Source: a virus
DNA: 25,376 nucleotides
Strand: one strand, 5' to 3'
Virus record (IMG/VR): IMGVR_UViG_3300037189_000322
Coordinates: 1-25,376 of that record
Shown: piece by piece, positions 4,327 through 23,118 of the stretch
How the letters are laid out: every line of letters begins with the position of its first letter
Position numbering within the stretch: the stretch's first letter is position 1
Notes under the pieces: generated by a model
Databases searched by the model: none
What the model was told of the DNA's origin: nothing
What the model saw: only the letters and a program-made list of their open reading frames with translations
Translations under genes and position numbers: made by a program

Positions 4327-6276
4327 ATGCCATTACTTGAAACAAAAGGCGCGGCCTCGGCACAGGGGTTTGGCTTGACGCTTGGTACGACAGTTGCCAA
4401 TTACATCGAAGACGTATTCAGCACTTGGCTGTACGTGGGCAACGGCGGTACTCAGACCATTACCAACGGAATTGATCTGGCGGGTAAGGGCGGATTGGTG
4501 GTTGTGATGAACCGCGCTGGCGGGGTAAATTGGGTTTGGACTGATACCGTTCGTGGCGTCAACTACATTTCATCAAATAGCACCAACCAACAGCTATCTG
4601 GCTCTACGTTTGTCAATGCTTTTAACTCCAACGGCTTTACTGGAGGCGCAAACGTCAATTCTTCCGCCGCTAACTACGTCTCATGGACACTCCGAGAGCA
4701 AGCAAAATTCTTTGATGTTGTGACGTATACAGGGACGGGTTCAAACAGAACTATTGCGCACAATCTTGGCTCTGTGCCGGGGTGTATCATGGTTAAGCGC
4801 ACGGACACTACAGCCGATTGGCAGGTGTACCACCGCAGCCTTGCCAACACCGAATACATGGTGTTGAACTCCACAGCAGCGGTAGCCACAGGCGCTACGC
4901 GCTGGAATAGCACAACACCGACAAGCACAGTGTTTAGCCTCGGCACTGACACAACAGTCAACGCTTCGGGCGGTACATATGTAGCCTACCTTTTTGCCCA
5001 TGACGCAGGAGGTTTTGGCCTGACGGGTACGGACAATGTGATTTCGTGTGGGTCGTTTACCGCTGACGGCAGCGGTAATGCAACAGTGAATCTCGGGTAC
5101 GAGCCTCAATGGGTAATGATTAAACAGACTGACGACACCGGGTCTTGGTTTATGTTGGACATCATGCGCGGGTGGTCACTTTCTGACGATGCACGTTTGT
5201 TTGCAAACTTACCAAATTCAGAGACTACGTTTGCCCAAGGAAACCCAACGGCCACAGGTTTTTCTGCTGTTGGATTTTCTGCTTCCGGAACATTCATCTA
5301 CATCGCCATACGCCGTGGCCCGATGAAAGTGCCGACAACGGGGACTAGTGTGTTCAACCCCGGGGTTTGGGCAGGTACTGGCAGTAACGCAAATATCTCA
5401 GTTCCATTTGCGCCCGATCTTTTTATAAGTAAAAATTTATTAAATACGTTTGGAACGGGGGTGCAGTGGTACGACCGTCTCCGTGGCCTGCCCCGCACCA
5501 TTTCTTCTACTAACACATCATCTGAGTACGTGGCAACAGACAGCGTAAATGCGCTAAATAACAGAAGTGTTGCTGTTGGAAGCGACCCGGATGCGTTTGT
5601 GAACTATTCCGGTTCATCCTATGCCAACTGGGTATTCCAACGCGCCCCCGGCTTCTTTGATGAAGTTTGCTATACGGGGACAACCCCAAACCTTACTGTT
5701 GCTCACAATTTGCAAGCAATACCTGAGTTGATGATTATTAAACAAAGAGGTGGTGCGGCTGGTTGGGCTGTGTTTGCTAATTTAACCTCCACCACTATGC
5801 GTTTTGGAAGGTTGGATTTAACAAATACCGTGCCTTCTGATACGTATGCAAATCAAGGGTTTTTAACAGGGCAGCCTACTGCCAGTTCGTTTACGTTAAT
5901 TGGTGCGTCAGGACAGTTGGCAAACAATGCGGGTAGCACCTATGTTGCCTACCTCTTTGCAACCTGCCCCGGCGTGAGCAAAGTTGGTACATTTACAGGC
6001 ACAGGCGCAACACAGGTGATCGACTGCGGCTTCACAGGTGGTGCAAGGTTCGTGCTTATCAAGGCTGCCAGCACCACGGGCAACTGGCTGGTGTGGGACT
6101 CTGCTCGCGGCATCGTGTCTGGTAACGACCCCTACCTCACACTGAACACAACAGCCGCTGAAGTCACTGGGACCGACTGGGTGGACACTGCCTCTTCTGG
6201 TTTTGAATTGAGCAACGCTGGCGGCAACTTGGCTAACAGTAACGGCGTTTCGTACATTTTCCTTGCCGTGAGTTGA
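4327..6276 (+). CDS. Virion protein with repeated DUF7483-like beta modules, 649 aa
   Basis: Likely a tail or receptor-binding protein. It contains repeated modules: FFDVVTYTGTGSNRTIAHNL (about residue 129) and FFDEVCYTGTTPNLTVAHNL (about 443), each followed by a stretch of the VPGCIMVKR / IPELMIIKQ type. Two related units, CGSFTADGSG...WVMIKQ (about 240) and VGTFTGTGATQ...FVLIKA (about 553), complete a four-part architecture. The AHNLG...P..I..K pattern resembles the DUF7483-type domain that I associate with tail proteins of environmental phages. The start has AAGGGG just upstream of the ATG at 4327. The middle of the gene is visibly richer in A and T than its flanks (about 35% G+C in 5401-5460 by hand count, against about 57% in 6001-6060), suggesting a swapped module. 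It is followed directly by a homing endonuclease gene. Confidence 0.75.
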   Translation: MPLLETKGAASAQGFGLTLGTTVANYIEDVFSTWLYVGNGGTQTITNGIDLAGKGGLVVVMNRAGGVNWVWTDTVRGVNYISSNSTNQQLSGSTFVNAFNSNGFTGGANVNSSAANYVSWTLREQAKFFDVVTYTGTGSNRTIAHNLGSVPGCIMVKRTDTTADWQVYHRSLANTEYMVLNSTAAVATGATRWNSTTPTSTVFSLGTDTTVNASGGTYVAYLFAHDAGGFGLTGTDNVISCGSFTADGSGNATVNLGYEPQWVMIKQTDDTGSWFMLDIMRGWSLSDDARLFANLPNSETTFAQGNPTATGFSAVGFSASGTFIYIAIRRGPMKVPTTGTSVFNPGVWAGTGSNANISVPFAPDLFISKNLLNTFGTGVQWYDRLRGLPRTISSTNTSSEYVATDSVNALNNRSVAVGSDPDAFVNYSGSSYANWVFQRAPGFFDEVCYTGTTPNLTVAHNLQAIPELMIIKQRGGAAGWAVFANLTSTTMRFGRLDLTNTVPSDTYANQGFLTGQPTASSFTLIGASGQLANNAGSTYVAYLFATCPGVSKVGTFTGTGATQVIDCGFTGGARFVLIKAASTTGNWLVWDSARGIVSGNDPYLTLNTTAAEVTGTDWVDTASSGFELSNAGGNLANSNGVSYIFLAVS

Positions 6277-6278
6277 GC

Positions 6279-6791
6279 ATGAGAAAAGCATTCACACAGC
6301 ACAAGAGCAACGCAAAGCAGCGCGGTGTCGAGTTCTTGTTCACGTTTGAACAGTGGCGCGACTGGTGGATGGCGACTAATAAATGGGGGCAGCGCGGTCG
6401 CGGTCGCGGCAAGTTCTGCATGAGGCGTCATGGTGATGTTGGCCCGTACAGCCTCGACAATGTTTTCTGCGGAACAAATGAAGACAATCTGCGGGATGGC
6501 AACCTCGGCAAAGTGATGAGCGACAAGACAAAAGCGCTGATTTCAGAGGCCAACACAGGCAAGCCGCATCCGTGGTCTGCTGGCGAAAGAAACGTAATGC
6601 ACAGGCCAGAAGTCAAGGCTAAGATCAGCGCAGCAACCAGTGGTGGCAAACACTACCGCGCAAAGATAGTCGCCACTCCGCATGGAATCTGGACATCCGC
6701 AACCGAGGCAGCAAAGTGCATTGGAATTCCAAAGCCAACCGTTGAATGGCGCTGCAAAAACAATAAACTGGGCTTTGCCTACCTTACCTAA
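6279..6791 (+). CDS. Freestanding HNH/NUMOD3-type homing endonuclease, 170 aa
   Basis: Predicted selfish DNA endonuclease. The N-terminal part (KQRGVEFLFTFEQWRDWW, then KFCMRRHGDVGPYSLDNV and GTNEDN) matches a family of phage homing endonucleases with a conserved C-M-x-R-x-G-D-x-GPY-x3-NV core; the DNVFCGTNEDN part resembles the end of an HNH motif. Two NUMOD3-like DNA-binding stretches follow (TKALISEANTGKP and VKAKISAATSGGKH). The C-terminus (TPHGIWTSATEAAKCIGIP onward) looks like a NUMOD1-type helix-turn-helix. I chose the ATG at 6279, two bases after the preceding stop; a TTG at 6273 in the same frame would overlap that stop. No strong ribosome-binding site is visible. The neighbouring genes are intact and no intron boundary is apparent, so this is a freestanding element between a tail gene and the chaperone-like gene. 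Cleavage activity is not shown. Confidence 0.8.
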   Translation: MRKAFTQHKSNAKQRGVEFLFTFEQWRDWWMATNKWGQRGRGRGKFCMRRHGDVGPYSLDNVFCGTNEDNLRDGNLGKVMSDKTKALISEANTGKPHPWSAGERNVMHRPEVKAKISAATSGGKHYRAKIVATPHGIWTSATEAAKCIGIPKPTVEWRCKNNKLGFAYLT

Positions 6792-9897: not shown

Positions 9898-10533
9898 ATG
9901 ACGACTGCAAGTGTGATGACTTACGACAGCTTGGTCGAGAACGTCCAGTCCTATCTGGAGCGTACCGACACAGCCACCATTGAGAAGATCCCGCTGTTTA
10001 TCATGCTGGCAGAGCAGACCATTGCTGCGCAGATCAAGTTCTTGGGCAACTTGACGGTCAACGCCAGCACCATGACGGCAAACGAGAACGTGATTGACAA
10101 GCCTGCACGCTGGCACAAGACGGTCTCCATGAACATCACGGTCGCAGGCAAGCGCTACCCTGTGCTGCTTCGCAAGTACGAGTACCTGCGCGAGTATTGG
10201 CCTGACCCAACGCTGACAGGCGTCCCCAAGTTTTACTGCGACTACGACTACACCCACTGGATGGTGGCTCCAACACCGGATACCGCTTACACCTTTGAGG
10301 TTCTGTACTACGAGCGCCTCCAGCCGCTTGACTCATCCAACCAGACCAACTGGTTCACCATCTACGCCCCTCAAGCCCTCCTGTACGGCACGCTGCTTCA
10401 AGCCATGCCGTTCCTGAAGAACGACGACCGTGTGCAGTTGTGGCAAGCGCTGTATCAGCAGTCCATGGATGTGCTGGTGGCGGAAGACAAACTTCGTGTG
10501 GCCGACCGTCAAGCGGTGGCGATAGACAGCTAA
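9898..10533 (+). CDS. SU10-type head-tail adaptor protein, 211 aa
   Basis: Predicted to form the ring joining the portal to the tail nozzle. The N-terminal helical part (SLVENVQSYLERTDTATIEK, then IPLFIMLAEQTIAAQI) and the central block RYPVLLRKYEYLREYWPDP (about 87-104), KFYCDYDYTHWMVAPTP (about 111-127) and FEVLYYERLQPL (about 133-144) are characteristic of SU10-type adaptors. The C-terminal helices (YAPQALLYGTLLQAMPFL, then QLWQALYQQSMDVLV) complete the fold. The ATG has AAAGG about ten bases upstream. It is the first gene after the proposed promoter and is followed nine bases later by the next virion gene. In related phages this protein is the equivalent of the tail tubular protein A of T7-like phages. 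Confidence 0.8.
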   Translation: MTTASVMTYDSLVENVQSYLERTDTATIEKIPLFIMLAEQTIAAQIKFLGNLTVNASTMTANENVIDKPARWHKTVSMNITVAGKRYPVLLRKYEYLREYWPDPTLTGVPKFYCDYDYTHWMVAPTPDTAYTFEVLYYERLQPLDSSNQTNWFTIYAPQALLYGTLLQAMPFLKNDDRVQLWQALYQQSMDVLVAEDKLRVADRQAVAIDS

Positions 10534-10542
10534 GGATCAATC

Positions 10543-11781
10543 ATGACTTACAACAGCCCCTTCACGGGAAACGTCATCCAGCCAACAGACGTTTCGTACC
10601 GTTCTGTCACCCTTGCGGCTAACACTCAACTGGAGTGGCCGATCAACGGCAACGCCACGGACGACTACATTGCTCGGATCATGGACGTCACGGCGTCATC
10701 TGCTGGTTTGTCGCTGTTCATGCCTCCAGCGAACCAAGCCTCGGTCGGTAATGATTCCTTGATCCGCAACGTGGGGGGCAACACCTTCACGGTTAAGACT
10801 TTCAACGGAGTTTCAACGATCATCACGATTGCCCCCGGTGAGGCCAAGTACGTCTACATCAAGACCAATGCCAACGAACAAGGCACTTGGGGCAACATTG
10901 CTTTTGGTGTTGGAACGTCTTCAGCAGATTCCGCATCACTTGCTGGCGCTGGACTCTTGGCTTCTGGCTCTACGCTAAACCAAAGCCACCCATCAAGTTC
11001 GCTGACCGCTGCGTACACCTTCTTGACGAGCGACAGAGCCAACACCAAGATCTGGTCTGGCGGAACAACAACAGCCACCTTGCCTTTGGCTACGGCTACG
11101 GGCGACAACTGGTTTGTCCTGTTCAAAAACAACGGCACTGGGACTGTTACGGTCGGAACAACAAGTAGCCAACTTATTGACGGGGCGGTCACAAAAGCAT
11201 TTGCCCCCGGCGAGTCGGCTTTCATTGTCTCCACCGGCACTGAGTACATCACCGTGGGTTACGGCGTCAGCACTCAATTTGAGTTTGGCGTCCTGACCAA
11301 GCCCGTGACCACGGGAACCGTCACACTGACGGCCAGTGAAGCCGCCAACACGATCCAGATCTACACTGGGACACTGACGGGCAACGTCACGGTCATCGTA
11401 CCCCCGGTGGTGAACCTGTACGTGATCTCTAACCAGTGCGCTGCCGGGGCTTTCACTCTGACGATCTCCACTGGCGCTGTCGGAGCCAACACAGCTACAG
11501 TCCCTGCCTCTGGTCAGGCAACCCTGATCTGTGATGCAACGAACATTCTGAACGCTAACACCACCCAAGCTGGCGGCACGGCCATCAGTCTGGTCAACGG
11601 CTCCGCTGCGTCTCCATCTTTGAACTTTGGCTCAGAAACCAACACCGGCATCTACCGCCCCGGCGCTGGACGCTTTGGCATCTCCGTGCTGGGCAATTTG
11701 ATTGTGGATGTTGAGGCAACTGGAATCGACGTCACCGGCACTGGAAACTTCACGGCAGGCATCTCTGGCGGAGCATTCTGA
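10543..11781 (+). CDS. Fibre-like virion protein between adaptor and nozzle, 412 aa
   Basis: Probably a structural appendage. The N-terminal ~130 residues (MTYNSPFTGNVIQPTDVSYR, VTLAANTQLEWPINGN, NEQGTWGNIAFGVGTSSADS) form a conserved head I recognise from other environmental phage genomes, where it also sits beside adaptor or nozzle genes. The middle (about 150-340) consists of repeated beta-rich Thr/Gly/Val segments such as YTFLTSDRANTKIW and NTIQIYTGTLTGNVTVIVPP. The C-terminal ~60 residues contain PSLNFGSETNTGIYRPGAGR and end in FTAGISGGAF, much like the end of the 1106-aa fibre (ASINGGTF). The stop overlaps the nozzle gene start in a TGATG junction. A fibre attached to the tail collar is plausible; no enzymatic motif is seen. 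Confidence 0.7.
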   Translation: MTYNSPFTGNVIQPTDVSYRSVTLAANTQLEWPINGNATDDYIARIMDVTASSAGLSLFMPPANQASVGNDSLIRNVGGNTFTVKTFNGVSTIITIAPGEAKYVYIKTNANEQGTWGNIAFGVGTSSADSASLAGAGLLASGSTLNQSHPSSSLTAAYTFLTSDRANTKIWSGGTTTATLPLATATGDNWFVLFKNNGTGTVTVGTTSSQLIDGAVTKAFAPGESAFIVSTGTEYITVGYGVSTQFEFGVLTKPVTTGTVTLTASEAANTIQIYTGTLTGNVTVIVPPVVNLYVISNQCAAGAFTLTISTGAVGANTATVPASGQATLICDATNILNANTTQAGGTAISLVNGSAASPSLNFGSETNTGIYRPGAGRFGISVLGNLIVDVEATGIDVTGTGNFTAGISGGAF

Positions 11782-14057
11782 TGACAAAAAAGGTTTTCGC
11801 CCTAGACACGAAGCCCGGAATCCAGCGGGACGGAACCTTGTTTGACAAAGAGGTGTATGTCGATGGTCAGTGGGTTAGATTCCAGCGTGGACGCCCCCGC
11901 AAGATCGGGGGCTACCGACAGATCACCGAATCCCTTGCAGGCCCCTCGCGGGGCATTTTCGTTGTTCCAAGAAGTAATTTCAACAACGTCTACAGCGGCC
12001 ACGCAAACGGCCTTCAAGTGATTCCTGTTGATAGCAACGGTGTGGGTTCCGGCATCACCGACTACACTTTCGGCGGGTCTGTGTTGACTGTCAACGCTCT
12101 TGTTGGGGGTTCTGGCTACGTTAACGCCACTTACACCGCTGTTGCCCTGTCTTACGTGACATCCGGAAATGGATCTGGCGTAACGGCCACCGTGGTTGTT
12201 TCTGGTGGCGCTGTGACCTCGGTGACGATCACCGGGGGTGGCTACGGCTACAACCAGTACGAAAAGCTCACCGCCACCGCTGCCCAGCTTGGTGGATCTG
12301 GCTCAGGCTTTTCCATTCAAGTCCTGACAACAGCCTCTGCGTTCGTCCCATCGGATGAGAATCTCTGGCAGTTCGACACGTTTACCGACTCCTCTGGTTC
12401 GGGTAACAACCTCTTGTTGGCCCACCCCTCAAGGGATCTGAGCGACATCGACAACGAGACCAATACTCGACTTCTGGCTGGCCCTATCAGCGGCACAAAT
12501 TTGAACCCTGTGGGAGTTTTTACGCAAGTTGGAGCCACGGCAAGCGGTTCTCCAAACGTCACCCTTGCGGCTGCAAACTTCAGCGTCGGAGCCGGTCAAC
12601 TGGTGACTGGCCCCGGAATCCCTGCGGACACCCGTGTGCTGTCTATCTCCGTGACCGCCATGGTGCTGACCAAGAACGCCACCGCAACATCAGCAACAGC
12701 CACATTGACGTTTGACAACGAGGTCTCAATCTCTGGTGGTGTGGTGTCTTTGCACCCCTATGTCTTTGTTTACGGCAACGATGGTTTGATCCGCAACTGC
12801 GCCTCTGGGAATCTGGAGGACTGGGTCTCTGCTGAAGCCAACGCCGTGAACATGTCCACCGGCAAGATCGTTCAGGGCTTCCCTGTCCGTGGTGGCTCCA
12901 ACGCTCCTTCTGGGCTGTTTTGGAGCCTTGACAGCCTGATCCGTGTGTCCTTCGCCCCCACCACTTTGGGTATCGGCGGCACGGCAAACTTCGCGGCTCC
13001 AACTTTCTGGCGTTACGACATCATCTCCAGTCAATCTTCCATGCTGTCGAGCCAGTCCGTGATTGAGTACGATGGCATCTACTACTGGTGTGGCGTGGAT
13101 CGCTTCTTGCTGTACAACGGTGTGGTCAAGGAGATCCCCAACTCTATGAACCAGAACTGGTTCTTCGATAACCTGAATTACACCCAGCGTCAAAAAGTCT
13201 ACGCTACCAAGGTACCTCGCTATGGCGAAATCTGGTGGTTCTACCCTCGCGGGAACTCAACTGAATGCAACGATTGCATCATCTACAACGTGCGCGAGAA
13301 CGCTTGGTACGATGCCGGTCAGGCCTTGGGTGCACGTAGGACTGCCGGTTACTTCTCACAGGTCTTCCGCTTCCCCGTTAACGGCGGGGTTGAGATTAAC
13401 GCTGTGGGCGGATTGCTGAACGGTTCCATCACAAACGCTGGTTCTGGCTACACCAACGCCACATACTCCTACATACCCCTCACAGGAGGCTCAGGATCGG
13501 GTGCTACAGCCACGATCACGGTCACTGGAGGGGCAGTTACGTCCATCGTGATTAACGACCGTGGATCTGGTTATGTTGTAGGCAACACCTTGACCGCCAC
13601 CTTTGGTTCTGGATCTAACTTCCAGTTCACCGTAAATACGACCATCAACTTCGTGAGCCTGTGGCAGCACGAGATTGGCACGGATGAGGTGAAGTTCACC
13701 CAATCCAACGCGATTGAAGCATTCATTGAGACCAGTGACCTTGGCTGGGTGGCTGGTGGCCCTTCGCAGCCCTCCCCCGTGGGTGAGAACCGATGGTTGC
13801 ACGTTGAGCGGTTGGAGCCAGACTTTATCCAAAGCGGGACCATGGAGCTGTTTGTGACCGGTCGACCCTTCGCTCAGGCTGAAGATAAAACGACTGGCCC
13901 CTATCCTTTTGAGCCCGGAACAACGAAAATTGACCTTAGAGAGCAAAGACGGGAGCTGAGATTGAAGTTCGTGTCCAACGTTGCTGGCGGCAATTTCCAG
14001 ATGGGTAAAGTGATCGTCAACGCAGATCTTGGGGATGTTCGTGGCTACAGCACCTAA
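11781..14057 (+). CDS. Tail nozzle-like structural protein with inserted beta domains, 758 aa
   Basis: Probably the tube or nozzle of the short tail, given its size and its place after the adaptor. The core reads VYVDGQWVRFQRGRPRKIGG near the N-terminus, SGLFWSLDSLIRVSF, VIEYDGIYYWCGVDRFLLYN and GEIWWFYPRG in the middle, and WLHVERLEPDF and LRLKFVSNVAGGNFQMGKV at the C-terminus. Three extra domains interrupt it. Two are related to each other, at about 104-185 (GSGYVNATYTAV...) and about 543-623 (GSGYTNATYSYIPLTGGSG...). A third, at about 246-315 (VTLAAANFSVGAGQLVTGPG, then TRVLSISVTAM), is a different common phage insert. The start overlaps the previous stop (TGATG). The last bases overlap the next small gene. 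Confidence 0.7.
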   Translation: MTKKVFALDTKPGIQRDGTLFDKEVYVDGQWVRFQRGRPRKIGGYRQITESLAGPSRGIFVVPRSNFNNVYSGHANGLQVIPVDSNGVGSGITDYTFGGSVLTVNALVGGSGYVNATYTAVALSYVTSGNGSGVTATVVVSGGAVTSVTITGGGYGYNQYEKLTATAAQLGGSGSGFSIQVLTTASAFVPSDENLWQFDTFTDSSGSGNNLLLAHPSRDLSDIDNETNTRLLAGPISGTNLNPVGVFTQVGATASGSPNVTLAAANFSVGAGQLVTGPGIPADTRVLSISVTAMVLTKNATATSATATLTFDNEVSISGGVVSLHPYVFVYGNDGLIRNCASGNLEDWVSAEANAVNMSTGKIVQGFPVRGGSNAPSGLFWSLDSLIRVSFAPTTLGIGGTANFAAPTFWRYDIISSQSSMLSSQSVIEYDGIYYWCGVDRFLLYNGVVKEIPNSMNQNWFFDNLNYTQRQKVYATKVPRYGEIWWFYPRGNSTECNDCIIYNVRENAWYDAGQALGARRTAGYFSQVFRFPVNGGVEINAVGGLLNGSITNAGSGYTNATYSYIPLTGGSGSGATATITVTGGAVTSIVINDRGSGYVVGNTLTATFGSGSNFQFTVNTTINFVSLWQHEIGTDEVKFTQSNAIEAFIETSDLGWVAGGPSQPSPVGENRWLHVERLEPDFIQSGTMELFVTGRPFAQAEDKTTGPYPFEPGTTKIDLREQRRELRLKFVSNVAGGNFQMGKVIVNADLGDVRGYST

Positions 14058-14304
14058 TTTACAGAGTGCTCTGGTTTATGACCCGAGGTACATGGAATTT
14101 GATCAGTGGGCCTCTCTCATGTGTGAGCAGTATTCAGCGCAGCAGTTGCCTGTGCCGGACGCTCAGACTGAATGGAAGAGCTGGGCAGCGGGGTTGTTGG
14201 CGATTGATGTGTTCATCAACCAAAACATCCCAAGTCCGTATAGTTTTGAAGACTGGCAGGACTGGGCTTCTGCTGTGTTGAATGTCATGAATGGTGGAAG
14301 ATAA
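14035..14304 (+). CDS. Small conserved phage protein, about 89 aa
   Basis: Function unknown. The sequence is acidic and rich in Trp (DPRYMEFDQWASLMCEQYSA, TEWKSWAAGLLAIDVFINQ, FEDWQDWASAVLNV), a pattern I recall in small genes that follow nozzle genes in other phages. It starts inside the end of the nozzle gene, with ATG at 14035; a GTG at 14041, with GGGG six bases ahead of it, and a TTG at 14029 are alternatives. The stop TAA shares its final A with the start of the 1687-aa gene, so the three genes are coupled. It may be a minor structural or assembly protein. Confidence 0.65.
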   Translation: MFVATAPNLQSALVYDPRYMEFDQWASLMCEQYSAQQLPVPDAQTEWKSWAAGLLAIDVFINQNIPSPYSFEDWQDWASAVLNVMNGGR

Positions 14305-17300
14305 TGGCCGTAACAAACGAGCAAGTCGCTTCTTATTTAGCATCGAACTCTAACCTGAGTGATGCGGACATTGCTGCGGCCATGAGCCAGTTTGGGGTGA
14401 CGCCTGCACAGATGGCGCAGGTCACTGGTCTTGATGTAGGCGCTGTACAGTCCCGCTTTGAGGCCGCTGCACCCGCTCCCGTTTACGCTCCTGAACCTGT
14501 TTACACCCCGCCCGTCTACACCCCCGATCCTGTTTATTCCCAGCCTGCGCCACTTTCTTTTGTGCAGCCAAGCGTAAGCGCTACGCCCAGCCCTCTCGGG
14601 GGCGTTTCGGAGCCGCTGTATTCAAGCCTGACAGCTTCAAGCACTCCACAACAAATTGCCGAAGCGTATGCCCAATTTGTTGGGGGTGCTGGTGGTGATA
14701 CGAAAGCCAACCAAGATGCAGCCCGTGAATTCCTTGAAAGCCGTGGGATTGCTGCGCCAACTATTGGGCAAGCGTATAACGAGTTCGCACAGCCGCAGCA
14801 GGTAAATGCGGATGCAGTTTCGGGTGCGCTTTCGCAAGTCACCAGCGTTCGTGGCGATGACGCCATGTCGCACCCCAACGACAGCCTCGCACCAACGAAC
14901 CTCGACAGGTACGAAGTCCGCACTGAGCAAGGACCCTACTCGCACACAGAGTATGAAGGGGGTCCGGCTGTATATAGTCCTGATGTCACCAGATATTTTG
15001 ACAAAACAACAGGCAAGGAAGTTAGCGCCAATGAATACCGTGCAGGCACAGGTCAGGGCAATACTGTTGATAAATTGACTTCCCAAATTTTGGGGCAGGG
15101 CATAACAGATAAGTGGACGGGTCAGGCTTTTGGATCTGCCGCTGCAACTGCTGAGGACATAGCGAAAAGATTGGACAGTATTGGCATTACCGACATCAAT
15201 CAGTTCGGCAAAGTGGACGCCTATCAAAATGTTTATGAGATGGGCAAAACTTACAATGGTCAACGTGTTGGCAAAATCGACCCAAATGAAGATGGCAACC
15301 TCATTGATGCGACTTATGACCCCGACAGAGGCTGGATACCAGTTCCGGCTGGCGCGAAACTTGAAACCATATACGGGCAAGAACTACAAGCCGCTGGGGA
15401 CGACTATGGCACGCTTACCCCCGTAAATTCTTCGGACGTCACCATTGTTGACGGCAAGCCTGTAATTAAAACTGGTCAAACCTTTGGCAACAAGGTAACT
15501 GGTGAGGCGTTGGACCCGAACTACGCTTTTGCTGGTGGGAACATTTTCAGCGGAACATTTGCTGGCAAAGGCAGAACGGGTTATGGCGTTCAGTTTGCTG
15601 ATGATGGAACGCCGTACTTTTACACGGCATACGGCGGCTCAAGCAACGACCTTGCGCAGCTCATGGAAGACCCGATTATTGGCACCGTTGTGCAAGCAGC
15701 GGCTTCATATTTTGGTGGACCACTTGGAACTGCTGCACTGAACTTGGCGGCTGGCAGGGAGCCTGAGGATGTGGCAAAGGCTGCATTGACTTCATGGGTT
15801 GCCGGAGAGGTCGGCAAAATTGTATCGGGTGCGCCATCCGTGATTGATGCTGTGGGGCAAACCGGTGCAAACATTGCTGGTCGTGTTGCTGGCTCTGTGG
15901 TGACTGGCGGTGGCAAAGATGGGGCATTTCAAACGCTGCTCACGGGCGGTGTTGGCGCAGTCATGCCGGAAATTCAGTCCATGATTCCCGGCTACGAAGA
16001 CTTACCCCCGTTCGGGAAAGAATTTGTCAACAACGCAATAGCATCGACACTGCGGGATGGTGATCTGAGTCAGCAGGACCTGATCAATGCTGCTGTCAGG
16101 GCTGGCACGGTTGCCGCAAGGACTTCGGCTGGCGGTACAACTGGCGGTATCACCAACCGCACTTACGACGACACCATCACTCAGGCTGGTGCTGATGCCT
16201 TCTTGAGGGCGAAAGAGGCTGGTGCTTCCGATGAAGACGCCATGGATGCTGCCAACGCCGTAACGGGTGTGCAGATCAACCCAATTGATGCTGGTGGTCC
16301 TAACCTGTCCACCACGACAACGTATGACCCACGGGCTGCTACTGTTGACACAAACTTTGGTGATCTGCAAGGCGCGATTGAAACCAATGCAATAAACGAC
16401 GCCATGCGTGCTGACAGGCTAGATCTGATCAGTCAAGCACCAAGATTCAGTGACGCCTACAGCCAAGCTCGTGAGCTGCTTGGACCAAACCAGACGTTCA
16501 CATGGAACGGCAAGCAGTACAGCACAGCCACTGCAGAGGAGCGTCCAGATCTATCTGCGCCAAAGGTGCAGCCAGCAACGGATCAGAGCGCCGCAGAGAC
16601 TGCACGCCTGACAGCTCAGAATACCGCCTTGGTTACGGGCAACGCGCCAGACCAGAGCGCGGCAGAGACTGCTCGACTCGCCAACCTGAATGCAGGTTTG
16701 AAGTCGATGGAGAAGACCGGCTTCCTTGGTCAAATTTACAAAGACCTGAACGAGCAATTCAGGCTTCAAGGCGTTGCTGCAAACGAGTACCTGAAGAACA
16801 ATCCCAACAGCCCAATTACTCAGAGCGTCAGCTCGGCATTTGAGGCTGCTGGTGAGCTTCAAAAGAACTTGGGCGGCATACCCTTGGCTTTTGACAACAA
16901 GCCTCTTGCTGACATTATTATCAGTGGCGGCAGTAAGTTGCAAGCACTGGGTCAGTCGCTTGGAGATGGTCCGCAGGACACCAAAAATTGGAACGATACC
17001 GTTGATCTGATTAGCAAAGCCAAAGGAACAGAGAAGCTGGCTGTTCTGGCTGGTCGCATCATGGACGGGACAAGCGGGCTTGCAAGGCAAATTGGCGTTG
17101 AGCTTCGCCAAGAAATCCCGGCTCTCTTTTTGGGTGGCGGCTTGTTGAGACCAACCATGATTGCCAGTGGTTTGATTGATGTTGCCGACACGGGTGGCGC
17201 TGCTGTTATTGAGGCATACGATGACGTTGTCAAAAAAGGCGGAACCCATGCCGAAGGTTTGTCTGCTGGACGTAAAGCTGGCGCTGCCGCCGCTGCAACT

Positions 17301-19367
17301 GAAGCCGTCATTCAAGCAACGATGGGCAAGCTCGGTGATTTTGCCGCTGGTAAGCTCGACAACGTCTTGTCAAAGGGAACCACAAAAATAGGCTCTGAGG
17401 GCGTTGTTGGTGGAACTCAAGAGGCGGGTTCATCTGCTGCTGTGGATCTTGCTTTGGGCAACGCTATCGACGTCAACAAGGCTATCACGCAGGGCGTTTT
17501 GGGGACTGCCGTAAGCAAGGGTGCGGCAACCGCAACCTCTGGCATCGACGCCGCGCAGACCGATTCAATCAACAACATCATCTCAACCGCTGTTGCTTCC
17601 AACAATCCAGAGACCGTCAACTCGGTCATCACAAACTCTGTGCAGACATCGCTGAACAGCGGCGCTTCTGTTGAGGTTGCCGTTGGAAATACTGTTGGTG
17701 CAGCGATCACCAATGGCGCGGACGCTGCCGTGTCAATTGATAACGTGGTGACCACTGCGATTGAAAACGGTGCTGACACATCTCAGGTGGTTGCATCAAC
17801 AATCACTTCTGCGGTTAATGCAGGATCTGAAGCGGCTGTTGCTGTTGATTCTTCAATAACCGCTGCATTAAATGCCGGTGGAGATCCAGCCGTAGTTATT
17901 GACTCTGCCGTAACTGCTGCTGTAAATGCTGGCGCAAGTGTAGACACAACACTGGCCTCCGCCGTGTCTTCTGCTGTTAACGCTGGTGCTGACGTCAACA
18001 CGGTGGTTCAGGCGGCAACGGATGCAGCGGTCAGCACTGGCAACGATGTGACGGTTACATCAGACGCTAATACGGTCACGATCAACAATGCCACGACCAA
18101 CACTGACACCACCGTTGATGCAGCCACTGGCGTCACCACTACGGTGGACAACGCCAACAACGTGACCACGGTGGTGGATGGCAACACCACAACTGTTGTT
18201 GACGCGAACACCAATACCACGTCACAGACTACCGTTGACACCGCCAATAACACCCAGACAACAGTTGTTGCTGACGCCGCCACAAACACAAACACCGAGA
18301 CGGTTGTTGACACCAAGACCAACACCACTACCTCGACTACTGTTGACACCAACAACAATACAACCACTCAAACCACAATCAATCAAGACACACAGACAAC
18401 TGTCTTGACTGACACCAACAACAATACACAGACAACAGTGAAGTTGAATGTCAACACGGGTGATGTGATTGAAGTCAAAGAGGCAGAGATTCCTCCAGAC
18501 TGGAAGCAGCCTGTTGTTGAGACTCCCGTTGTTCCACAATCGGTTACGCCTCCAACAGTTGTGTCTCCAGAGGCCACTCCTCCAGCGACCGTTGTCAATC
18601 AAGTTGCAGCAGCTCCAAAACTTGCACCTAAACTCACGGAAGAATCAAGAGTTGGTGCTAATGGGGTTGGTTTGCCTGTTGGTATGGACTTAAAACCAGC
18701 CTCCCTGCGCTCACGCGAGACGCAAAAGGCCATCGACCCACTTGCTCGGGTAAAAGAGATACAAGCTGAATTTGAAAGAGACGCCATGATCCAAAACGTA
18801 GACCCCCGCCTGATGCAAATCTTGCAGCAGCGTTCAGACCCTCAACAGCAGTCACAACAGTTCGACAAAGACATCGGTGCGCTGGCAAGACTCTTGGGCG
18901 GCGAACCCGAAGCCCCGAACACCAGCAACTACTACTCCTACGGTTCCGAGGACAGCATCGACGACATCCTTGGGGGCAGGGCAGCAAACTACAAGGAGGG
19001 CGGCTACGTGGAGCCCCTGAAGGCTTCTGGCGGTTCTATGGCGCTTCCTCTGCTGGCAAAGTCCGGTGGCGCTCTGGGTCATTACCAAGGACGTGAGAAT
19101 TTCAAAGAAGGCAAGCACGTTGCTGGTAAGGGTGACGGACAGTCGGACGACATCCCAGCATGGCTGGCTGACGGGGAGTTTGTCTTCCCTGCCGACGTGG
19201 TTTCTGCCCTTGGTAACGGCTCCACAAAGGCTGGAACCGACAAGTTGTACGAGATGATGCACGGCATCCGTGACCGCGCCAGATCTAAGGGTCCGAAGGA
19301 TCTTCCCCCTCCCGCTTTGAAATCCCCGCTGGATTACTTAAAATCTAGCAAAAGGAGCACCTCATGA
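14304..19367 (+). CDS. Giant internal virion/ejection-type protein, 1687 aa
   Basis: Likely an internal core or DNA-ejection protein. The N-terminus (NEQVASYLASNSNLSDADIA) looks like a small helical UBA-like domain and is followed by a Pro-rich linker (about 52-100). Gly/Ala-rich hydrophobic patches occur at about 470-550 and 980-1060 (AALNLAAGREPEDVAKAA; KAGAAAAATEAVIQATMGK) and could contact membrane. A 23-residue duplication (DQSAAETARL) begins at 760 and 783. Eight 18-residue repeats span 1111-1254 and a Thr/Asn/Asp repeat tract spans 1269-1387. The C-terminus has a widespread phage module, GDGQSDDIPAWLADGEFVFP (about 1610-1630), followed by VSALGNGSTKAG and KLYEMMHGIRDRARS. It starts in a TAATG junction and ends in an ATGA junction. 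The three following ejection-type genes support the role; no enzyme motif is seen. Confidence 0.7.
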   Translation: MAVTNEQVASYLASNSNLSDADIAAAMSQFGVTPAQMAQVTGLDVGAVQSRFEAAAPAPVYAPEPVYTPPVYTPDPVYSQPAPLSFVQPSVSATPSPLGGVSEPLYSSLTASSTPQQIAEAYAQFVGGAGGDTKANQDAAREFLESRGIAAPTIGQAYNEFAQPQQVNADAVSGALSQVTSVRGDDAMSHPNDSLAPTNLDRYEVRTEQGPYSHTEYEGGPAVYSPDVTRYFDKTTGKEVSANEYRAGTGQGNTVDKLTSQILGQGITDKWTGQAFGSAAATAEDIAKRLDSIGITDINQFGKVDAYQNVYEMGKTYNGQRVGKIDPNEDGNLIDATYDPDRGWIPVPAGAKLETIYGQELQAAGDDYGTLTPVNSSDVTIVDGKPVIKTGQTFGNKVTGEALDPNYAFAGGNIFSGTFAGKGRTGYGVQFADDGTPYFYTAYGGSSNDLAQLMEDPIIGTVVQAAASYFGGPLGTAALNLAAGREPEDVAKAALTSWVAGEVGKIVSGAPSVIDAVGQTGANIAGRVAGSVVTGGGKDGAFQTLLTGGVGAVMPEIQSMIPGYEDLPPFGKEFVNNAIASTLRDGDLSQQDLINAAVRAGTVAARTSAGGTTGGITNRTYDDTITQAGADAFLRAKEAGASDEDAMDAANAVTGVQINPIDAGGPNLSTTTTYDPRAATVDTNFGDLQGAIETNAINDAMRADRLDLISQAPRFSDAYSQARELLGPNQTFTWNGKQYSTATAEERPDLSAPKVQPATDQSAAETARLTAQNTALVTGNAPDQSAAETARLANLNAGLKSMEKTGFLGQIYKDLNEQFRLQGVAANEYLKNNPNSPITQSVSSAFEAAGELQKNLGGIPLAFDNKPLADIIISGGSKLQALGQSLGDGPQDTKNWNDTVDLISKAKGTEKLAVLAGRIMDGTSGLARQIGVELRQEIPALFLGGGLLRPTMIASGLIDVADTGGAAVIEAYDDVVKKGGTHAEGLSAGRKAGAAAAATEAVIQATMGKLGDFAAGKLDNVLSKGTTKIGSEGVVGGTQEAGSSAAVDLALGNAIDVNKAITQGVLGTAVSKGAATATSGIDAAQTDSINNIISTAVASNNPETVNSVITNSVQTSLNSGASVEVAVGNTVGAAITNGADAAVSIDNVVTTAIENGADTSQVVASTITSAVNAGSEAAVAVDSSITAALNAGGDPAVVIDSAVTAAVNAGASVDTTLASAVSSAVNAGADVNTVVQAATDAAVSTGNDVTVTSDANTVTINNATTNTDTTVDAATGVTTTVDNANNVTTVVDGNTTTVVDANTNTTSQTTVDTANNTQTTVVADAATNTNTETVVDTKTNTTTSTTVDTNNNTTTQTTINQDTQTTVLTDTNNNTQTTVKLNVNTGDVIEVKEAEIPPDWKQPVVETPVVPQSVTPPTVVSPEATPPATVVNQVAAAPKLAPKLTEESRVGANGVGLPVGMDLKPASLRSRETQKAIDPLARVKEIQAEFERDAMIQNVDPRLMQILQQRSDPQQQSQQFDKDIGALARLLGGEPEAPNTSNYYSYGSEDSIDDILGGRAANYKEGGYVEPLKASGGSMALPLLAKSGGALGHYQGRENFKEGKHVAGKGDGQSDDIPAWLADGEFVFPADVVSALGNGSTKAGTDKLYEMMHGIRDRARSKGPKDLPPPALKSPLDYLKSSKRSTS
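16581..16679 (+). repeat. Direct coding repeat (DQSAAETARL, two copies)
   Basis: A 30-base segment at 16581-16610 recurs at 16650-16679, 69 bases (23 codons) apart, with only a few third-position changes. Both encode DQSAAETARL. This is a small internal duplication in the 1687-aa protein, just before a helical region. Confidence 0.65.
17634..18065 (+). repeat. Eight 54-bp coding repeats (18-residue units)
   Basis: Residues 1111-1254 of the 1687-aa protein divide without gaps into eight 18-residue units. Examples are NTVGAAITNGADAAVSID, STITSAVNAGSEAAVAVD, SSITAALNAGGDPAVVID and SAVSSAVNAGADVNTVVQ. The consensus is roughly SxVTxAVNAGADxxxVVx. The DNA copies have diverged, so the repeat is old and held at protein level. 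A degenerate unit with two extra residues precedes it. Confidence 0.8.
18108..18462 (+). repeat. Thr/Asn/Asp-rich repeat tract (TTVD units)
   Basis: Residues 1269-1387 of the 1687-aa protein are a run of short units starting TTVD, TVVD or TTV and rich in N, D and T, such as TTVDAATGVT, TTVDNANNVT, TVVDTKTNTTTS and TTVDTNNNTTTQ. Unit length varies from about 8 to 14 residues. The pattern suggests a stacked beta structure or an extended linker. Confidence 0.65.
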
Positions 19368-20344
19368 GCTTATTTGACGCGCCAGATCCACGGAAAGTGG
19401 AGTTAAAGGGTAGCACCACTCAAACCGCCCCGCAGTACCTGACGGACTACCTGTCTTCACTGGCCCAGACTGGTCAACAGCAGTTGGGTGCAGCCAGCAT
19501 TGCTCCACTGAATCAAAACCTTCAGGATCTGTACGGTGGGGCTCGGGACACTTTGGAGCGCTACCAAACCCCCATGGACGAGTCCTTGTCGACTCTGCAA
19601 GGCGCTGCAAAAGGCGTATCTGCTCAGGACATCTCTCAGTTCTACAACCCGTATGAGCAAGACGTGGTTAATGAGATGGGTCGTCAGAGCGCCCTAAACG
19701 TCCAGCAAAGCATGCTTCCCGCTTTGCGTGCTGCATTCGCTGGTCAGGGTGGCTTCGGGAGCCAAAGGTACGCCGGGGCAATGGGGCAGGCCATGGGCAA
19801 CGTGCAGTCGGACCTGTTCGGCAATCAAGCCAAGCTGCGCTCCGAGGGCTACAAGACCGCCTTGGATGCTGCCTTGCGTGATCGCGGCTATGACATTCAA
19901 GCGGGTCAGAGTCTTTATGGCTTGGGTCAAGCCGAGTCTCAAGCTGGGACTCAAGGACTCAAGACCTTGGGCGACATCGGCGCTCAGGAGTTGGGCTACG
20001 AACAGTCGAAAATTGAGGCTCCACTGACTCGTGCTCAGAACGTGGCTCAGATCATGCGTGGATACACGTACCCCATGACCACGGCAGAGACCAAAGAAGC
20101 CCTTCCCGGGGCATTTGCACCTTCTCCGTTGCAACAGATTGCTGGCTTGGGTACGCTGGTTGGTGCTGTTGGGAAAGGCAGCTCAGGAAGCGACATATCG
20201 AAATTTTTGAGCGGACTCAACTACAGAGGATCAACCGGAGACCTCCGAGGCGGATCTACTCTTGTGACTGGCGGGGAAAATCTTGGTTATGGTGAAGCTG
20301 GATCTGCCGCAAGCGATGAATTCAACCCGTTTCCAATAATTTAA
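19364..20344 (+). CDS. Internal virion protein, 326 aa
   Basis: Probably an ejection or core protein. It is helical and Ala/Gln-rich, with motifs I recognise from virion proteins of other environmental phages: SQFYNPYEQDVVNEMGRQ (about 91-108), GQGGFGSQRYAGAMGQAM (about 127-144) and repeated LRSEGYKTALDAALRDRGY and GLGQAESQAGTQGLKTLG segments. The first ~30 residues (MSLFDAPDPRKVELKGSTTQ) are extended and the last ~70 are Gly/Ser-rich, including a hydrophobic stretch (QQIAGLGTLVGAVG). A strong ribosome-binding site (AAAAGGAG) precedes the ATG, which overlaps the stop of the 1687-aa gene (ATGA). Molecular role is inferred from location among ejection-type genes; it could also be a scaffold-like protein. 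Confidence 0.65.
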   Translation: MSLFDAPDPRKVELKGSTTQTAPQYLTDYLSSLAQTGQQQLGAASIAPLNQNLQDLYGGARDTLERYQTPMDESLSTLQGAAKGVSAQDISQFYNPYEQDVVNEMGRQSALNVQQSMLPALRAAFAGQGGFGSQRYAGAMGQAMGNVQSDLFGNQAKLRSEGYKTALDAALRDRGYDIQAGQSLYGLGQAESQAGTQGLKTLGDIGAQELGYEQSKIEAPLTRAQNVAQIMRGYTYPMTTAETKEALPGAFAPSPLQQIAGLGTLVGAVGKGSSGSDISKFLSGLNYRGSTGDLRGGSTLVTGGENLGYGEAGSAASDEFNPFPII

Positions 20345-20353
20345 GGGGCAACC

Positions 20354-21856
20354 ATGGCAACCAAAGCACCGCTTGGCTCCTTATACGCTGAAGGTCCAGA
20401 AGAACAAGCTCTGGTTGATGAGATCAAGGGAACATACGCAAAGTTGCGTGAATCCCTTGAGGCTCGTCAAAAACCGTTATTTGATCCAACACTGCTGGCT
20501 ATGGCTCAGGGCTTTCTTGCGCCCACAAAGACCGGCTCTTTTGGTGAGGCTCTTGGCAACGTGGCCGCTCAAGTTGGTCCCGCTCAGGAGGCTCAAGAAA
20601 AACGTGCCCAAGAGATTGCCTCCATGAAGATGGAGTTGGCCCAGCGTGAGCTTGCCCAGCGTCAAGCAACCCGTGGCGAAGCCATGTTTCAACAGATGCT
20701 GCCTCGGATTGGGGGGCAATCAGGCGCTGCTACTCCCAGAGCGCCCGGTACGCCTGCTGCTCCCGGCGCTCCAGCCGCCCAGCAAATGCGTCCGGTTACG
20801 TCCGCCGACATCGCACTGCTTGCCAGTCAGCCGGGTATGGAAGGCAGGGCCAAAATCCTGAGCGACATGATCAAGTCTGATCGAGATCGCTTCAGCATTT
20901 CCATGAACGGCATCGTGTTTGACAAAGACACGCAGCAGTACCTCAACCTTGAGATTCCGGGTCAGAAGCAAGAAAGATTCACAACTCAGTTCGGCACCTA
21001 TGAGATGACGCCCTACGAGTACAGCCAATACAAACAGGCTGAGGCGGCAGGACAGGGAAAACAGTGGATTGACAAATTCCGTGGGGTTGCGCCTTCTGGT
21101 GCCCCTACCAAGCCAACAGTTCGTCCGACTGTTGCGGAATCTGCCGCAGAGATTAAAGGCGCAGAGACTAGGGCTGTTGACACCACCAAGGCAGAAGTTG
21201 GTCGCACGCAAGAGATGATCGACGCTGGCAAGGATGTATCTGGTCGTTTGGCTTCGTATTCCGCCCTGCGCTCAATCGCTGCTCGTCCCGATGCCAAGGA
21301 GATCTTCGGTATCTTCAACCGTCCAGACTTCGGCAGTGCGTTGCTCAACCTCATCCAAGAGGGCGTCAAAACCCCCGGACAGACTTCTATTCAGGCTGGT
21401 GCTTTGGAAGACAGCCTGAGGAACATCGGCTTGTCGCAAGATCAGATTGACCGCTACCGCTTTGGCTTGTCCGTCATGGCGAACATCCAGCTTCAGCAAG
21501 CCAAGTTGGCTGCTGGTCAAGGCGCAATCTCCAACTTCGAGCGAGACTTGTTCGCCAGTGCCACGCTGTCACCAAAGGACAACCCCGGCACAATCTTGGC
21601 AAAACTCAGTATGCTTGAGGCTCGGGCAAACTTTGACAAACAACGTGCTGCCGCCCTTCGCAAGACCAAGATGGATGCGGATGATTTTATGGACACTCCT
21701 GAAGGTCAACGTATGTCTCAAGAGTACCTGAACCAGATCTCAAACATCGCCTCCAACATGGGCGTCAGAGCCCCTGCAAGGTCAAATCAGCGCTCTGCTA
21801 CTGGCAACTACGGTCCAGCAGCCTCAAAACTTCGTGAAGAGCTTAGAGGTCAATAA
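20354..21856 (+). CDS. Internal virion/ejection-type protein, 500 aa
   Basis: Function inferred from position. The N-terminal section (DPTLLAMAQGFLAPTKTGSF, then GEALGNVAAQVGPAQEAQ) is a helical head common in internal virion proteins. A charged coiled coil at about 78-112 (EKRAQEIASMKMELAQREL) and an Ala/Pro linker at about 123-145 follow. The C-terminal half is helical (VSGRLASYSALRSIAARPDA, DQIDRYRFGLSVMANIQLQQ, GAISNFERDLFASATLSP) and may form the core structure. The gene is nine bases after its neighbour, with AAGGGG before the ATG, and ends in a TAATG junction with the transglycosylase gene. It could work with the 1687- and 420-aa proteins as the three-component core familiar from T7-like phages (gp14, gp15, gp16), but homology is not evident. 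Confidence 0.6.
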   Translation: MATKAPLGSLYAEGPEEQALVDEIKGTYAKLRESLEARQKPLFDPTLLAMAQGFLAPTKTGSFGEALGNVAAQVGPAQEAQEKRAQEIASMKMELAQRELAQRQATRGEAMFQQMLPRIGGQSGAATPRAPGTPAAPGAPAAQQMRPVTSADIALLASQPGMEGRAKILSDMIKSDRDRFSISMNGIVFDKDTQQYLNLEIPGQKQERFTTQFGTYEMTPYEYSQYKQAEAAGQGKQWIDKFRGVAPSGAPTKPTVRPTVAESAAEIKGAETRAVDTTKAEVGRTQEMIDAGKDVSGRLASYSALRSIAARPDAKEIFGIFNRPDFGSALLNLIQEGVKTPGQTSIQAGALEDSLRNIGLSQDQIDRYRFGLSVMANIQLQQAKLAAGQGAISNFERDLFASATLSPKDNPGTILAKLSMLEARANFDKQRAAALRKTKMDADDFMDTPEGQRMSQEYLNQISNIASNMGVRAPARSNQRSATGNYGPAASKLREELRGQ

Positions 21857-23118
21857 TGGATGAATTTTTGAACAAGTTAAGCGAAGATCAGGCGCAAGTT
21901 GCGCTTGAGATTGCACGCAAGGCCAAGCAGATGGGCATTGACCCAAAACTTGCCGTGATCTTGGCTTACCGCGAAAGCGGACTCAAGCCTGACGCCAAGG
22001 GGTCAAGTGGCGAGATCGGCACGATGCAAGTGATGCCAAAGACAGCCGAGATGATGGGGTTCTCGGTTGAAGATTTGCGAGATCCAGCCAAGAACATTGA
22101 GATCGGTCTGACCTATCTCAAGCAAGGTCTCGACAAGTTTGGTGACCCTATGCTGGCTGTTGCCGGGTACAACGCTGGGCACAATCATCCCTATTTCACA
22201 GACCCCGAAAAGAACGCTCTGCCTGCGTCCACCAAGGACTACCTGAGAGACATTAACGGCATGGGCGGCTTTGCTGAGCCCGAGGCTCAAGAGGCACCTC
22301 CCGAGCCCGTGGTGACGCCAGCTTCTGAAACCGACTTCATGGCGAACAAGGCACGCATTGCCACCGACGTTGCGGGTATTGGTGCTGGGGCTGCCCTGTC
22401 AAAGGGCTTGGATGTCGCATCAAACATCGGCAAAACGGGCGAAGCCATCCGTCAGTTACCCGGTGCCTTGTCTGCTGCAAGACCAGTTGCTGGCGGACCT
22501 GCTGGACCCGTTGGCGGACCCGTCTCTTCTGGGGCAAAGTGGCTTCAGAACTGGGGTGGAATTTCCAAGGAAGGTTTTTCTGGAGGCGTTCCAGAGGGTG
22601 CGGCTCAGTACAACAAGATGAAGCCGCAAGGTCAAATCATGCAGGGGCTGGCAAAGAAGGGCTTGATCACCCCTCAGCCTGTGCAGCCGGGGGTGTTCAC
22701 GGGTGGACAGCTTTCAATCTCGGGGCAACCAAGTGTTGCACCACCACCTCCACCCCCAAGTCCGCTGTCGCAAGCTGCTGGCGCTGTAAAACAAGGCGTA
22801 GGCGCTGTTTTGCGCTCACCCATAGCCTCGGGTGCTCTTGGCGGTCTTTCGATGGCTGAGAGCGGTCAGGAGGCTCAGAAGCGCGTTCAAGCGGGTGACA
22901 CCACCGGAGCCATGATTGCAGGCACTGGCGGCTTGGGTGGAGCCATGCAGATGATGCCCAGCCCACAACTCAAGACCATTGGTGCTTTGATCTCTGCCGC
23001 ATCGCCTTTGACTCTTTACCTGCGGGAAAACCTGAAAAACCAAACCCCAATGCCTGACCCAACCGAGCAAGAGATGTTTGAGGCACAGAGACCCGCCTTC
23101 AGATACGCAAGACCCTAA
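21856..23118 (+). CDS. Virion lytic transglycosylase (SLT domain) protein, 420 aa
   Basis: Predicted to cut peptidoglycan locally during genome entry. The N-terminal ~140 residues are a soluble lytic transglycosylase domain. The catalytic Glu is E40 in AYRESGLKPDA, followed by GEIGTMQVMPKTA (about 53-64), NIEIGLTYLKQGL (80-92) and AVAGYNAG (101-108). After a Pro/Glu-rich linker come Gly/Ala-rich, partly hydrophobic segments (VAGIGAGAALSKGLDV; GPAGPVGGPVSSG), a run of six prolines (about 296-301) and another Gly/Ala-rich region (SGALGGLSMAESG). This is the layout of internal virion proteins such as T7 gp16, though much shorter. It starts at a TAATG junction and is the last plus-strand gene before the terminator. 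It is a particle enzyme, distinct from the endolysin at 9291-9839. Confidence 0.85.
   Translation: MDEFLNKLSEDQAQVALEIARKAKQMGIDPKLAVILAYRESGLKPDAKGSSGEIGTMQVMPKTAEMMGFSVEDLRDPAKNIEIGLTYLKQGLDKFGDPMLAVAGYNAGHNHPYFTDPEKNALPASTKDYLRDINGMGGFAEPEAQEAPPEPVVTPASETDFMANKARIATDVAGIGAGAALSKGLDVASNIGKTGEAIRQLPGALSAARPVAGGPAGPVGGPVSSGAKWLQNWGGISKEGFSGGVPEGAAQYNKMKPQGQIMQGLAKKGLITPQPVQPGVFTGGQLSISGQPSVAPPPPPPSPLSQAAGAVKQGVGAVLRSPIASGALGGLSMAESGQEAQKRVQAGDTTGAMIAGTGGLGGAMQMMPSPQLKTIGALISAASPLTLYLRENLKNQTPMPDPTEQEMFEAQRPAFRYARP

Follow-up and report, generated by a model that had tools for sequence, protein, structure and literature searches.

A tandem repeat with quantised unit spacing, predicted to form an alpha-solenoid, in a putative ejection-module protein of an unclassified and probably short-tailed phage

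Natural alpha-solenoids, such as those built from HEAT/TOG, TPR, PPR and ankyrin repeats, are rods in which antiparallel helices stack, and their units are about 30-40 residues long for two or more helices. De novo designed helical repeat proteins such as DHR4 (5cwb) have short, regular helices joined by tight turns. Among phages, SU10 is short-tailed and has five ejection proteins, one of them with transglycosylase activity (PMC9509320). The locus described here resembles the ejection modules of T7, P22 and SU10 in that an adaptor and tail proteins are followed by a cluster that includes a match to an ejection protein and an SLT transglycosylase. It lies in a window (the whole stretch of 25,376 nucleotides that was analysed) from a virus that is unclassified and probably short-tailed, and the protein of interest in it is a product of 1687 aa that bears a tandem repeat. 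The alpha-solenoid class is known. The libraries used did not recognise this repeat family, and the solved structures most like it are designed proteins; what is unusual is a helix length that would change by whole turns. Taken as a whole, the evidence leans towards an alpha-solenoid array that serves as a spacer in a protein of a short-tailed phage's ejection module.

Gene neighbourhood and protein family

The features of the window that bear on the placement of the protein are the following.

9898..10533, + strand: SU10-type short-tail adaptor, upstream of the 1687-aa ORF (PF24175, E 7.8e-27)
11781..14057, + strand: 758-aa tail or structural protein
14304..19367, + strand: large ORF of 1687 aa that bears the repeat; the whole protein has no Pfam, PHROG or NCBIfam match
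18891..19364, + strand: C-terminal domain of the 1687-aa protein, residues 1530-1687, with the DGEFVFPADVVSALGNGS motif, the family's common marker
19364..20344, + strand: 326-aa neighbour with a weak match to a PHROG 'DNA ejection protein' (E 4.6e-4)
20354..21856, + strand: 500-aa neighbour with no PHROG or Pfam match
21856..23118, + strand: 420-aa protein with an SLT transglycosylase domain (PF01464, E 7.5e-23)

A homologue of the 326-aa protein is the next gene to the family protein in 86 of the 89 distinct loci with enough sequence, and the homologue from one relative (L163) matches a PHROG DNA ejection protein at E 2.1e-6. Of 63 distinct loci that are long enough for the comparison, 59 have a homologue of the 500-aa protein, and 46 an SLT transglycosylase protein, within 5 kb downstream of the family protein; upstream, the 758-aa protein has a homologue in 25 of the 33 distinct loci that extend far enough. 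The gene for the 1687-aa protein follows the tail genes and belongs to the ejection-protein cluster, and because of the adaptor, the ejection homologue and the SLT neighbours the protein is placed in a short-tailed phage ejection module. From this gene context we infer that it is a virion protein. It differs from the ejection proteins of T7, P22 and SU10 in having no sequence match to them. In searches for ejection-protein families the full-length protein matched no PHROG and its pieces gave weak or unrelated matches, and the protein exceeds in size those ejection proteins for which section 4 of PMC8954989 states a size. Elsewhere in the window, a short ORF between tail fibre genes (6273-6791) has PHROG matches to homing and HNH endonucleases. 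In three relatives (L003, from base 187; L052; L066) a separate large ORF upstream of the family protein has a strong 13-residue periodicity.

The C-terminal motif DGEFVFPADVVSALGNGS is shared with PHROG tape measure proteins and is widespread, relatives being encoded on at least 499 viral contig stretches. The relatives compared below were taken from two ranked sets, the best 80 from one of 121 and the best 80 from one of at least 499, plus further loci, and counts made on them lean towards window-like proteins. When ORFs with at least three quantised spacings were collected, near-duplicates included, the C-terminal domain was present in 84 of 95 and the other 11 run past the contig end. Among the loci examined, the arrays are confined to this one protein family. 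Cellular genomes yielded a single match to the C-terminal domain (L082), on a 27 kb contig of a Limnohabitans metagenome-assembled genome (MAG), which hints either at freshwater Comamonadaceae as hosts or at a misbinned phage contig.

The repeat array and its predicted fold

Two features of the large ORF make up the helical region.

17541..17657, + strand: two predicted helices, residues 1080-1098 and 1102-1118, at the N-terminal end of the array (AlphaFold2, pLDDT about 70-89)
17634..18065, + strand: eight 18-residue units, residues 1111-1254, forming a predicted alpha-solenoid (autocorrelation, AlphaFold2, unit comparison)

An earlier note on this DNA had described a gap-free run of eight 18-residue units, diverged at the DNA level, and both observations stand. 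All eight units tile without gaps, and autocorrelation over residues 1111-1254 has maxima at lags of 18, 36 and 54 (z of 11.7, 9.7 and 9.0), whereas in 2000 shuffles z did not exceed 5.0 whatever the lag. Position 10 is Gly in all eight units and position 6 is Ala in seven of them. Mean identity between units is 35% for protein and 46% for DNA, and at the 174 sites at which two units share a residue the same codon is used 55 times, compared with 58.6 expected from codon usage. The DNA of the units is saturated at synonymous sites, and the regularity is therefore old and kept at the protein level; judged by its codons and its periodicity, the repeat is real, old and maintained as protein. The array draws on only 12 residue types, with no Lys, Arg, His or aromatic residue. 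Unit 8 (residues 1237-1254) is degenerate, with half of the unit outside the repeat. At the other end, the helical run begins upstream of the strict repeat (about residues 1080-1118), where the register is not strict, and in the AlphaFold2 model the second upstream helix (1102-1118) overlaps unit 1.

The fold was predicted with AlphaFold2 for window residues 1040-1262 from a repetitive alignment of 12 rows from related loci, two of which (L009 and L011) lie mostly off the repeat, so that about ten rows were useful. The mean pLDDT of the model is 82.0, the first 41 residues being poor and the repeat reaching about 93-98. Seven helices of 14 residues (1123-1136, 1141-1154, 1159-1172, 1177-1190, 1195-1208, 1213-1226 and 1231-1244) are joined by linkers of exactly four residues, at the AGAD stretch. 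A relative, L005, was modelled from a repetitive alignment of eight rows; its model (mean pLDDT 92.6, pTM 0.90) begins with five 14-residue helices and continues with five 18-residue ones, and all turns have four residues. Both models are read as predicting antiparallel helices stacked in an elongated rod, the arrangement of an alpha-solenoid, and on the strength of these predictions the array is very probably an alpha-solenoid of short antiparallel helices. Gly would close one helix and Asp, Asn or Ser would cap the next, with a tight AGAD-type turn of four residues between them. The suggestion of a regular helical solenoid is thus supported, with no disordered region predicted in its place, and the accompanying idea that a unit equals five turns of helix has to be given up in favour of a 14-residue helix plus a four-residue turn. 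AlphaFold2 may yield confident false solenoids from perfect repeats; these are mainly beta-solenoids, and the authors of the study concerned suggest that the bias may matter only with near-perfect repeats (PMC11795689). Unlike the perfect repeats in those cases, the units here are diverged.

The top solved matches of the window model in Foldseek are designed proteins (8cwy_A, E 1.6e-4; 5cwb, E 7.4e-4). In structural alignment with VIA the window model resembles DHR4 (5cwb) with a Z of 13.4 and an rmsd of 2.5 Angstrom over 146 residues, and the L005 model resembles 8cws_A, a designed crystal component as is 8cwy, with a Z of 24.2 and 2.9 Angstrom over 309 residues. These proteins are artificial and do not share descent with the array, identity being 13% in both alignments, and designed helical repeats also differ from the viral arrays in that helix length changes along the array in some viral relatives. 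The natural solenoids share the stacking of antiparallel helices and differ by their low Z, which is 8.5 for 8d00 (a TOG domain, the best natural chain recognised) with the window model and 9.4 for 6zu9 chain o with the L005 model; none was prominent in structure searches with these two models, which does not prove absence. In the BFVD viral structure library the window model found nothing at E 0.001 or better.

Sequence searches agree with the view that the unit belongs to no named family, as far as Pfam, PHROGs and NCBIfam are concerned, and no known repeat family was matched. The window array gave nothing credible in these three libraries (the best in Pfam was PF02627, CMD, at E 4.5), and HEAT, TPR, ankyrin, PPR and other Pfam repeat profiles did not match it; the L005 array had no Pfam match. 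PF05205 (COMPASS-Shg1) was considered, as it matched the arrays of five of eight relatives with a best E of 4.9e-4; it does not match the window and was judged compositional. With the array as query, nothing below E 0.25 was found by sequence among solved structures, no match was found in a phage collection, and matches in a plasmid collection were at E 0.2 or worse. The array alignment, used with one pattern on cellular genomes, gave 33 pattern matches and no confirmed relative. In the literature, judged by titles and the openings of abstracts, no description of the repeat was recognised.

Unit spacing among relatives

The earlier note had proposed comparing unit number among related phages. 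A comparison of arrays from related viral contigs revealed that spacings are quantised at 18, 22 and 26 residues. A unit profile was run on the ORFs of 208 loci, and all distinct ORFs in which it found five or more units were kept, irrespective of spacing, which gave 36 ORFs. Their 36 distinct arrays contain 422 spacings of up to 46 residues (five further spacings are longer), divided into 201 of 18, 150 of 22, 39 of 26 and 32 of other lengths, so that 390 of the 422 are 18, 22 or 26. Taken modulo 4, the spacings leave 2 in 396 cases and 0 in 24, and are odd in 2; 420 of them are even. Glycine turns counted without the profile gave 157 of 346 at 18, 72 at 22 and 32 at 26. The added residues are tetrads of the S-A-V-T type, and the positions of the turn Gly and Asp/Asn are unmoved. 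Since four residues are about one helical turn, units of 22 residues are predicted to keep the same turn and to have a helix one turn longer. The L005 model agrees, as its 18-residue units form 14-residue helices and its 22-residue units form 18-residue helices with the turn unchanged. The gain or loss of one tetrad would therefore change the length of a helix and produce units of 18, 22 and 26 residues.

Array length varies widely across relatives. Two of the arrays, L166 (24 units) and L175 (22 units), have strict alternation of 18 and 22 over a long stretch, giving a 40-residue unit of two helices, as would be expected if the unit were a pair of helices. Similarity between units is higher at lag 2 than at lag 1 in 21 of 34 arrays, a weak pattern to which the window's own array does not belong. 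A graded lengthening of units from the N- to the C-terminal end, suggested by L005, was dropped, since all arrays together have 22 steps up and 21 steps down.

It is possible to imagine that such arrays arise by neutral low-complexity drift, expanding by slippage, with the helices a by-product of composition. The content of the slot that holds the array is extremely varied and is missing in some relatives, as drift would allow, and 12-base slippage inside the S-A-V-T tetrads could give steps of four residues. Such an origin is nevertheless improbable. Neighbouring units in 29 arrays have 687 synonymous codon matches, compared with 641.5 expected, over 2043 sites, and with synonymous sites saturated in this way slippage is not recent and most of the four-residue steps are old and have been preserved; still, nearly all spacings are even and the great majority have one of three lengths. 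The turn Gly and Asp/Asn are conserved as well, and neutral indels would have broken the register. The quantised spacings and the synonymous saturation strengthen the proposal in the earlier note that strict unit length implies selection on geometry.

The variable slot and its possible role

The array fills a variable slot between the N-terminal part and the conserved C-terminal domain of this putative ejection-module protein. In the window the slot has a second filling.

18066..18488, + strand: Thr/Asn/Val/Asp-rich segment, residues 1255-1395, second slot filling

Residues 1255-1400 have weaker periods of 24, 12 and 10 (z of 5.1, 4.8 and 4.3; the largest in shuffles was 4.7). Thr/Asn/Val/Asp-rich segments related to that of the window occur in many relatives, including L004, which lacks a helical array even though its downstream part shares 64% identity with residues 1237-1685 of the window protein. 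Slot fillings were assigned by simple composition rules in 87 distinct relatives of at least 400 aa, with near-duplicates dropped, four of 91 ORFs below 400 aa left out and several incomplete ORFs kept. They are helical in 29, Thr-rich in 20, (GT)n-like in 11, Pro-rich in 9, of the SGxSG type in 6 and of another type in 1; the remaining 11 (about 1 in 8) have no strong low-complexity filling, so that such a spacer is not universal. Repeats of (GT)n, SGxSG, TPTP or TTTG fill the slot in L098, L101, L129, L159 and others. A low-entropy filter is passed by 80 of these 87 proteins, and in them slot length ranges from 90 to 601 residues (median 228.5). Compared with the rest of the protein, Lys plus Arg is lower in the slot in 78 of 80 and aromatics are lower in 78 of 80, with the reservation that filtering for low entropy in itself selects for few residue types. 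Among relatives the slot is interchangeable, so that no particular fold may be essential to it.

Because the slot tolerates very different fillings and stays unsticky, a spacer is suggested, and we put the chances that it has this role, in a virion protein of the ejection type, at slightly better than even. It would determine how far apart, or how loosely joined, the two ends of an internal protein are, and this protein would exit the head together with the DNA or ahead of it and help to build a path across the envelope. Such a spacer may span part of the channel, provide slack during ejection or hold the C-terminal domain off the DNA. A further and rather unlikely idea is that the array is a slender rod, a natural counterpart of the designed helical repeats, in which helices are adjusted by single turns and both width and length therefore change in whole steps. 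It would be narrow enough to pass the portal and tail channel while still folded, and would act as a rigid strut in the place that a flexible linker takes in sister phages. Helices of 14-22 residues correspond to about 21-33 Angstrom, from the rise per residue.

Alternatively, the protein could be the tape measure protein of a long-tailed phage, with the array setting tail length. It resembles tape measure proteins in its short C-terminal motif and its length-variable middle: PHROG tape measure families match it over about 52 residues at the C-terminal end (best E 1.7e-6), array length is highly variable, and MW202545.1, which has the same gene order with a 639-aa relative, carries the record label Siphoviridae. 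Beyond these 52 or so residues, however, tape measure profiles gave no match, and the short C-terminal motif may be a common docking motif. No further tape-measure feature was found. Tail type was judged from the window, itself a fragment, and, in the relative G003, from a PHROG scan of 10 of the 22 ORFs of at least 180 aa in two of its three pieces. The neighbours are of the short-tail type, with the SU10-type adaptor, the adjoining ejection homologue and the SLT protein, and relatives that share the flanks have (GT)n in place of the array or have lost it, which would make tail length vary wildly. A tape measure role is accordingly doubtful, a little more so than neutral drift. To the same degree doubtful is a binding scaffold for a host or virion partner, on the model of HEAT or TPR proteins, instead of a spacer. 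Alpha-solenoids usually serve as such scaffolds (PMC11514114), but the window array lacks Lys, Arg and aromatic residues, and in relatives its place is taken by fillings unrelated to it. A beta-solenoid or beta-stacked array, like that of autotransporter passengers whose repeats are about as long, is very improbable, for although Val, Ile and Thr are abundant in the array, two of its seven helices (1123-1136 and 1177-1190) have a hydrophobic periodicity nearer to strand than to helix, and weak tblastn matches to AIDA-repeat autotransporters were obtained (best E 0.2), both AlphaFold2 models are helical with high confidence, indels come in fours, the length of one helical turn, and the turns resemble helix caps.

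If the reading of the array as an alpha-solenoid spacer in an ejection-type protein is right, it represents a repeat family not described before, with designed proteins as its solved look-alikes, and nature would alter helix length by whole turns, which would be useful for protein design. The series of natural swaps at one site of a probable ejection protein, with a helical rod, (GT)n, SGxSG or Pro/Thr-rich fillings, would make it possible to test whether fold, length or slack is what matters. In one relative (L080; MW202545.1, P0002) the middle of the protein is Cys-rich instead. The phage records MinM2, Pag-Yong1 and Pra-JY27, which have different hosts, are all 65,014 bases long with equal match identity and may be one phage.
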